This document shows positions 8,142-10,609 of a stretch of DNA of 64,000 nt, in pieces. The notes beneath the pieces are model-generated. The model was given only the letters and a program-made list of their open reading frames with translations. It was not told where the DNA came from and ran no database searches. Made by a program: the position numbers and the translations under genes. The DNA lies in NCBI RefSeq assembly GCF_009696315.1, contig NZ_VUMG01000001.1, forward strand, positions 620,001 through 684,000. The letters run 5' to 3'. Positions within the stretch are counted from its first letter, which is position 1. The number at the start of each line of letters is the position of its first letter. Origin of the DNA: Cutibacterium porci (GTDB lineage Bacteria; Actinomycetota; Actinomycetes; Propionibacteriales; Propionibacteriaceae).

Positions 8142-9365
8142 ATGATGCCGTTGTCACGTCGCACCAAGAACCTGTTGCTCACCGCCGCAGCGTTCCAGGG
8201 CGCTGGGGATTTCATGTTCGGCGCCGTGTACGTCATCTTCCTACGCTCGATCCCTCTCGACGGGCGGGCCATCGGCTTTGTGCTGGCGCTCGCTACGGGT
8301 GTGTCCTTGGTCGTCGAAGCCCCCAGTGGAGCCATGGCCGACCGCTACGGTCACAGACGGATACTCCTGGCAGGGCTGTTGTCGTGGGCGGTGGGCCTGA
8401 TAGCCCTATCCTTCGCATCCTCGGCCCTGGCTGCCGGTGGTGCGCTGCTGTTGTGGACGATCGGCATGGCCCTGCAATCGGGAACAGTCTGGCCGATTCT
8501 TCTCGGAACGGTCACCGAGGAGGACAAGCAGGATGCCATTGCGCAGTACTCCCGGCAATCCCAGTCGGTGCACTGGATGGCCTCGTTCCTGGGCGCCATG
8601 GCGGTGCTCGTCCTCGGGGCACGTTGCGACATGCGCTTCATCCTTCGTACTGCGGCCGGGCTGCTCGTGCTCGCCCTCGTGGTGTGCCTGTGGTTGCCCA
8701 AGGATGTCCGGCCAAGCGAGCGGCAGCCCGTGCTGGCGGTGCTCAGGTCGTCCTTCGGCTGGTGCGCGAGCCGGACGATTCTCCCGCTCGTCGTCGCGTC
8801 CGGGTTGTCGACGGTGTGCATGACCGGGCTGGTCGTCACGTGGCAGCCGAGGTTGGCGGCAGCCGGTGTTCCCCTGGAAGCGAACGGGGCGGTGTTGGGC
8901 GCACTGACGATCGCTGCGGCGGTGGGTTCTTTCTGCACCAAGTTCGTGAAGGTTTCCAGGCCACAAGGCGCTTTTTCGGCCATGGCTGGGATTTCGGCGT
9001 GTTTCTTGGTCGTGGCTCTGGCCGGAGGAACTCTCTGGGTCGCCCTCGCGGGCTATGTCGTCGCGGAGTTCTTCCTGGGGGGCATGTTCGTCGAGCTGGG
9101 AGCGTGGCAGCAGGAGATGTTGCCCGATGACATTCGCAATGGCGGCTTCTCGGCGCTTTCGACCATCAGCCTCGTTGTGGCCGTGGTCGTTAACGCCGGA
9201 ATGGGTGAGGTGTGGCAGCGGTTCGGCCTAGCAGTCACCATCGGCTGCGTGGCCTTGGTCATCGTAGTGGTGATCCTGGTCACCGTCTTAGTCAGATCAG
9301 CCTTTCGCGACTCCGACGCCCTCCTGAACCCTCATCGATTCAACTCGAAAAAGGAGATACCGTGA
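8142..9365 (+). CDS. MFS transporter, first gene of the radical SAM operon
   Basis: The 407-residue protein has about 12 hydrophobic helices and the MFS loop motif in GAMADRYGHRRILLAG. SGAMADRYGHR and the VVEAPSG segment just before it are like small exporters of drugs or secondary metabolites. Two adjacent ATGs (8142, 8145) could start it, and AGAGAG upstream is a modest ribosome-binding site. Its stop overlaps the next start (GTGA), and AAGGAG inside its end serves the next ORF. Position at the head of a biosynthetic operon suggests export of the product or self-protection. The substrate is unknown. Confidence 0.87.
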   Translation: MMPLSRRTKNLLLTAAAFQGAGDFMFGAVYVIFLRSIPLDGRAIGFVLALATGVSLVVEAPSGAMADRYGHRRILLAGLLSWAVGLIALSFASSALAAGGALLLWTIGMALQSGTVWPILLGTVTEEDKQDAIAQYSRQSQSVHWMASFLGAMAVLVLGARCDMRFILRTAAGLLVLALVVCLWLPKDVRPSERQPVLAVLRSSFGWCASRTILPLVVASGLSTVCMTGLVVTWQPRLAAAGVPLEANGAVLGALTIAAAVGSFCTKFVKVSRPQGAFSAMAGISACFLVVALAGGTLWVALAGYVVAEFFLGGMFVELGAWQQEMLPDDIRNGGFSALSTISLVVAVVVNAGMGEVWQRFGLAVTIGCVALVIVVVILVTVLVRSAFRDSDALLNPHRFNSKKEIP

Positions 9366-9538
9366 CTGCCACTCACATGCATACCATTACGGATGAATCC
9401 GCAGGTGAACTAATCGTGTTCGACTCGCTGACCTTGGACTGTGTGAGTGTTCCGGCCACATCTGTGGAGCAGGCATACGCTCAAGACGTAGAGTTTGCGT
9501 CTTGGTGGTCCTCACATGAGGCCGCAGACCGGGCTTAG
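9362..9538 (+). CDS. 58-residue ORF, in frame with the radical SAM gene behind it
   Basis: It starts at GTG 9362, overlapping the exporter stop (GTGA), with a strong AAGGAG at 9351-9356 five bases upstream. It ends with TAG at 9536-9538. The peptide begins MTATHMHTITDESAGELIVF, has one Cys (DCVSV) and ends SWWSSHEAADRA. It is in the same frame as the following radical SAM body, which lacks its own start codon. So it is most simply the N-terminal domain of that enzyme, cut off by an amber codon. A free peptide, for example a modification substrate, is the alternative. Confidence 0.65.
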   Translation: MTATHMHTITDESAGELIVFDSLTLDCVSVPATSVEQAYAQDVEFASWWSSHEAADRA

Positions 9539-10609
9539 CAAAAGCGACGTATCTATGCCCGTAAGCCCTGTCGGATCAACAACTTCCGCATTCTGCTAAC
9601 AGAGAAGTGTAACTTCCAGTGCACTTATTGCTTTGAGAGCGGTCTCATGGACATCGCACCACATATGACGCTGGAGGTGCTAGAGGGCACCGTCAAGGCG
9701 ATCATCGAGGCGAGTCCATGTGAGCGGGTTTCCATTCAATGGTTTGGTGGCGAACCCTTACTGCGCTGGAACCTTATCGCTCACGGTATGGACTTGTTTG
9801 AAGATGCCGTAGCAGAAAAACGGATTAGCGGTGTCAACTATAGCCTGACCACCAATGGAAGTCTAGCGACCCCCGCAATAGCTGAGCGTATGGCGCGTGA
9901 ATCCATCCAAGTTTTCGTAAGCGTCGATGGTCCTCAAGATGTAAATGACCTGTCCAGAATAGATCGATTAGGGCGAGGTACCTATGATCGAGCGATTCAA
10001 GGATACCGAACCCTTGCCGATCATGGAGTGGACGTTGGGCTTCTCGTGACAGTTTCCCCGGAAACGCTCTCTGGACTCAGTTCATCCATCGCCCACCTGA
10101 TTGAATCGGAAGGCCTCAGGAGAATCGGAATTAATACACCACAGCCGACGGAGAATGGCTGGGATGTCGATGGAGCGCTCTTGGCTAGTGAGATAGTAAA
10201 AATTATCCGGTTTTGCGATGAGCGCGGCGTTAAGCTTATTGCGCCTGGTATGCGTGCTCTCCGTGGCCTTGGTACTAAAACTCCGCATGTTGACGACTGT
10301 AGGGCGCCTGGCGGCGAAATGGCTGTCAGCGTTGACACCTTCGGACGTATGAGTGGCTGCATTGTCTCCTGGGTGGAGGGGCGCCCATGGAATAAGGATG
10401 AAATCACCCACCAATCGCTGGCTAGGTTCGAGATGCAGAAGTCAGCGAGTACTGTCCAGGACGTTTGTGATGGCTGTATCGCGGAGGCGATCTGCGGTGG
10501 GCCGTGCCATTTAGAATTGGCACTCCGTGGCCTGAATCCTGAGCGCTGTGCCTTCTATCAGACACTGATGTACGAATCTCTGATGAGTCTGCGGCGGTTT
10601 AACTCATGA
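9539..10609 (+). CDS. Radical SAM/SPASM enzyme body, separated from its start by TAG
   Basis: The frame contains CNFQCTYCFE, the CX3CX2C motif for the SAM-binding 4Fe-4S cluster, then WFGGEPLLRW and SLTTNGS. A SPASM-type C-terminus has Cys in DDCRAPGG, GCIVSW, CDGCIAEAICGGPCH and ERC, able to hold auxiliary clusters. No ATG, GTG or TTG lies in frame between the TAG at 9536 and the cluster motif at 9608; the first ATG (9647) is past the motif and would give a dead enzyme. Joined with the 58 codons upstream it would be about 415 residues, normal for peptide-modifying SPASM enzymes. It may be a strain-specific broken gene, or be read through. Confidence 0.8.
   Translation, partial: QKRRIYARKPCRINNFRILLTEKCNFQCTYCFESGLMDIAPHMTLEVLEGTVKAIIEASPCERVSIQWFGGEPLLRWNLIAHGMDLFEDAVAEKRISGVNYSLTTNGSLATPAIAERMARESIQVFVSVDGPQDVNDLSRIDRLGRGTYDRAIQGYRTLADHGVDVGLLVTVSPETLSGLSSSIAHLIESEGLRRIGINTPQPTENGWDVDGALLASEIVKIIRFCDERGVKLIAPGMRALRGLGTKTPHVDDCRAPGGEMAVSVDTFGRMSGCIVSWVEGRPWNKDEITHQSLARFEMQKSASTVQDVCDGCIAEAICGGPCHLELALRGLNPERCAFYQTLMYESLMSLRRFNS

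Follow-up and report, generated by a model that had tools for sequence, protein, structure and literature searches.

A single in-frame amber codon divides a putative radical SAM gene in the 64,000-nt stretch of the Cutibacterium porci genome analysed here (the window; contig NZ_VUMG01000001.1, positions 620,001 to 684,000), leaving a short open reading frame upstream and the body of the enzyme downstream. Are these two frames one gene or two and, if one, is the stop a mutation, an error in the sequence or a codon that ribosomes read through?

The gene is the second of an eight-gene operon (8142-15067) in which genes 1 to 4 overlap by 4 to 7 nucleotides, with more overlaps further on. G056, a genome from the same family and another genus, holds all eight genes in identical order (locus L022, G056:C1:214000-233000, about 5700-12900). 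The features of the region are as follows.

6454-15967, no strand assigned: island carrying the operon, without counterpart in the sibling genome G004
8142-9365, forward strand: MFS transporter (PF07690) that opens the operon, conserved in G056
9362-9535, forward strand: N-terminal segment of radical SAM gene 1, 58 codons; its GTG start shares 4 nt (GTGA) with the stop of the transporter gene; same overlap and homologous segment in G056; supported by a profile of Streptomyces N-termini
9536-9538, forward strand: amber TAG, the 59th codon of the frame, within a variable linker immediately ahead of the radical SAM domain
9539-10609, forward strand: radical SAM/SPASM body of gene 1, 356 codons plus TGA (PF04055; nearest NCBIfam model the PapB family; complete SPASM cysteines)
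10606-11334, forward strand: hypothetical protein of 242 aa, overlapping radical SAM gene 1 by 4 nt, without a Pfam match
11331-12272, forward strand: radical SAM gene 2 (PF04055, E 4.5e-24), with TAG as its normal stop
12266-13174, forward strand: radical SAM gene 3 (PF04055, E 3.6e-15; weak SPASM match)
13186-13638, forward strand: 150-aa protein, candidate substrate or partner, with an invariant N-terminal motif
13635-14417, forward strand: hypothetical protein of 260 aa, conserved in G056
14360-15067, forward strand: HEXXH-containing protein (AHEVAH), possible peptidase (weak PF01435 match, E 0.041), conserved in G056; start uncertain, TAG stop

The reading frame around the amber codon

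Radical SAM gene 1 starts at a GTG at 9362, which in the window sequence is preceded by AAAAAGGAGATACC, meets the TAG as its 59th codon and then stays open in the same frame up to a TGA at 10607-10609. Counting the TAG as one residue, the product has 415 residues, with the CX3CX2C motif at C83-C87-C90. The first-pass annotation had described a 58-codon frame and a radical SAM body parted only by the TAG, about 415 residues in all with the cluster near residue 83, and the sequence confirms this. GC content by codon position is 0.60/0.48/0.57 before the TAG and 0.58/0.46/0.54 after it, a likeness that fits the expectation for one gene.

Equally correct was the claim that no ATG, GTG or TTG lies between the TAG and the CX3CX2C motif. 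The only weak start codons in this interval are ATC (9551 and 9575), ATT (9590) and CTG (9593), none of them near a Shine-Dalgarno-like sequence, and the first ATG after the TAG, at 9647, is already past the motif. The body contains a Radical_SAM domain (PF04055, Pfam E 5e-19). Pfam returned no SPASM match for this gene; its seven-cysteine SPASM pattern is complete (CX14GX4C, CX2CX5CX3C and a last cysteine, here C313-x14-G-x4-C333, C369xxCx5Cx3C382 and C396), which upholds the earlier description of a SPASM-type protein.

Homologues have one open frame across the site

The homologue in G056 is one open frame without an amber codon, and its protein aligns to window residues 5-412, through the TAG site, at 46% identity; read from the sequence, its in-frame GTG overlaps the MFS stop as GTGA, as in the window. 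A homologue on a Streptomyces plasmid is a single frame of 442 aa at 35% identity and has a counterpart of the N-terminal segment, and one-frame homologues without an internal stop, mostly about 430 aa long and 30-33% identical, occur in 20 of 392 Streptomyces genomes. In these 20 genomes (loci L117-L136) the related radical SAM enzyme lies in different gene surroundings.

Conservation of the N-terminal segment is weak but collinear (ELIVFDSLTLDCVSV versus EAVLLDPVTLDSVFI). Aligned by itself with G056, the 58-aa segment likewise shows weak pairwise similarity; scored against a profile made from Streptomyces-type N-termini exclusively, the window segment reached 13.0 bits, compared with 9.1 bits for the best of 2000 shuffles, and the same profile ranked the G056 segment above its own shuffles. 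The TAG site corresponds in the homologues to a linker that varies in length and sequence, and no stop was found at this position in any homologue examined (G056, the Streptomyces plasmid and the 20 Streptomyces genomes). Because the homologues run through the site in one frame, we conclude from these comparisons that, as had been proposed, the 58-codon frame and the body are one gene with an internal amber codon rather than a peptide gene followed by an enzyme gene. A free-standing conserved 58-residue peptide beside an enzyme with its own start, which would have contradicted that proposal, was sought among the homologues and not found.

The nature of the stop

Two readings would keep the halves apart. 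The 58-codon frame could be a separate peptide gene, such as the precursor of a ribosomally made, modified peptide (RiPP), since it is a short frame with a good ribosome site, placed where precursors often lie. The segment, however, is fused in one frame with the enzyme in G056 and Streptomyces, its residues match the enzyme N-terminus and the body has no standard start, so that this reading is effectively ruled out by the one-frame homologues. Alternatively, the body might be made separately, by reinitiation or from an internal start at ATC 9551 or 9575, ATT 9590 or CTG 9593, and work with or without the 58-residue piece. Some relatives do start near the radical SAM domain, as in the PapB model (body 14-325 against 3-318 of 330), but the interval ahead of the motif holds no standard start, its weak codons have no ribosome site nearby and the N-terminal segment stays fused to the enzyme in all homologues examined; we regard such a start as very unlikely.

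With the two halves belonging to one gene, the choice lies between the three options that the first-pass annotation had left side by side, namely nonsense mutation, read-through and sequence error. The tRNA complement of the genome, 46 genes (covariance search; anticodons by ARAGORN), contains none with a CUA anticodon, no match in the genome exceeds the TIGR02367 cut-off for PylS, and TAG also terminates radical SAM gene 2, the HEXXH gene and several further genes of the window. For these reasons genome-wide recoding of UAG is very unlikely, and site-specific read-through is unsupported. Pyrrolysine-encoding, suppressor-tRNA and recoded genomes share with this locus an in-frame amber inside a conserved frame, here in radical SAM gene 1, and differ from it in just these respects. 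Natural read-through, in which a near-cognate tRNA or an unseen suppressor would decode the amber at some rate and so limit enzyme dosage, draws some support from the variability of the site, where an inserted residue would be tolerated, and from the open and conserved frame on both flanks. Against this stand the lack of a CUA tRNA and of PylS, the use of TAG to end genes in the same operon and the absence of a stop here from every homologue, and we therefore consider read-through quite improbable. Highly improbable, too, is the specific case in which the amber codon is naturally leaky and thereby governs how much of a peptide-modifying radical SAM enzyme is made, in an actinobacterium that has no dedicated suppressor tRNA; if true, this would be an unusual way for a biosynthetic operon to be controlled at translation. 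An error of sequencing or assembly, with the TAG a wrong base call and the gene intact in the living strain, deserves more weight, although it too is unlikely. The assembly is a draft (19 contigs for 2.6 Mb), the remainder of the gene and the operon are intact, and the TAG sits in a linker with no further sign of decay. However, comparison of several dozen window genes with the sibling G004 revealed no other obvious nonsense or frameshift lesion, save for one gene cut short at the edge of the island; the assembly thus does not look rich in errors, which favours a real mutation, and the lesion is of the substitution type rather than a homopolymer indel.

Thus, of the three options, nonsense mutation is favoured and read-through disfavoured, and codon 59 of radical SAM gene 1 has probably undergone a recent amber mutation. 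The lesion would be recent because no radical SAM or SPASM cysteine has been lost and every other frame of the operon is intact; an otherwise intact body fits a functional gene (sequence error or read-through) as well as it fits a very recent mutation. That the base is real and that the gene is functionally null are both points that we infer. Under an amber mutation, ribosomes would stop at codon 59 and release a 58-residue fragment, and no active enzyme would be expected, since the 356-codon body offers no usable codon at which translation could begin before the cluster motif. Because the genes overlap, the stop would leave about 1.07 kb untranslated before the next coupled start. Polarity is expected to reduce expression downstream of such an untranslated stretch, and the stop would probably also lower expression of the six coupled downstream genes.

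The enzyme family and the possible product

The NCBIfam model nearest to the body is that of the PapB family (NF047865), matched at 129.3 bits; this is far below the curated cut-off of 340 bits, and membership of the family was rejected. The likeness to the PapB ranthipeptide maturases is a nearly full-length match over the radical SAM and SPASM regions, with the CX3CX2C motif and SPASM cysteines in common, whereas gene 1 has an extra N-terminal segment and the stop codon, and no PapA-like precursor was identified. PapB is described as forming thioether cross-links (PMC9413430). Gene 1 would presumably encode a peptide maturase. Similarity to viperin (pVip) is confined to the radical SAM core (E 1e-16 to 1e-10, about half the model), and the SPASM cysteines of gene 1 argue against a viperin identity. 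A single-sequence AlphaFold prediction of the read-through protein was too poor for use (mean pLDDT 44).

The presence of three radical SAM enzymes alongside an exporter and a possible metallopeptidase suggests that the product of the operon is a RiPP. The window and G056 operons share no separate precursor; the 150-aa protein is the one small product conserved in both. Its N-terminus carries an invariant SDLCARSGLxSP (window 13186-13638; L022 11001-11450), and it could serve the radical SAM enzymes as substrate, partner or carrier. The protein also contains a domain loosely like glyoxalase/VOC (best PDB hint E 0.17); its single-sequence AlphaFold model was again too poor for use (mean pLDDT 41). 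An M29 aminopeptidase identity for the 242-aa protein, suggested by motifs, found no HMM support.

The cluster around the radical SAM homologue OIE76_RS43570 on the plasmid of Streptomyces sp. NBC_01727 resembles the operon in having a second radical SAM enzyme, an MFS exporter and a HEXXH protein as neighbours. It differs in its upstream 66-aa ORF, an aminoacyl-tRNA-ligase-like protein, an oxidoreductase and a P450, and in lacking the amber codon. The 66-aa ORF lies directly 5' of the radical SAM homologue (L025 9469-9669) and contains GDICSRSTCLGVGC, which is loosely like SDLCARSGL; it is a possible precursor.

Distribution of the operon

Among 198 genomes of the family the operon was seen in two, from two genera, and the 242-aa gene likewise occurs only in the window genome and G056; this gene is absent from all eight genus relatives. 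The sibling G004 is homologous to the window up to 6453 and again from 15968 onwards, and the operon is likewise missing from the regions of five further genus members that were aligned. GC content of genes 2 to 8 is 0.50-0.57, compared with 0.61-0.65 in the two neighbouring core genes measured. Given its absence from genus relatives and its lower GC, the operon region appears to be a variable island that was probably acquired horizontally. A PRD-domain gene (6028-6453) that has 297 codons in G004 is cut to 130 residues where it meets the island on the left. An IS110-like transposase remnant suspected by eye to the left of the operon had no Pfam match. Neither a close relative nor a second strain was found in plasmids (at the DNA level), viral contigs or one scan of GTDB contigs, and literature searches found no paper on the operon.

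Implications

In annotation, the two frames are best recorded as a single interrupted gene, and it should not be presumed that this strain produces whatever the operon makes. A nonsense mutation, the most likely reading, is an ordinary kind of lesion, here in an uncharacterised operon. Of more interest than the stop is the operon as a whole, which combines three radical SAM enzymes with a transporter and a possible peptidase and has no recognised precursor; its intact version in G056 is worth study.
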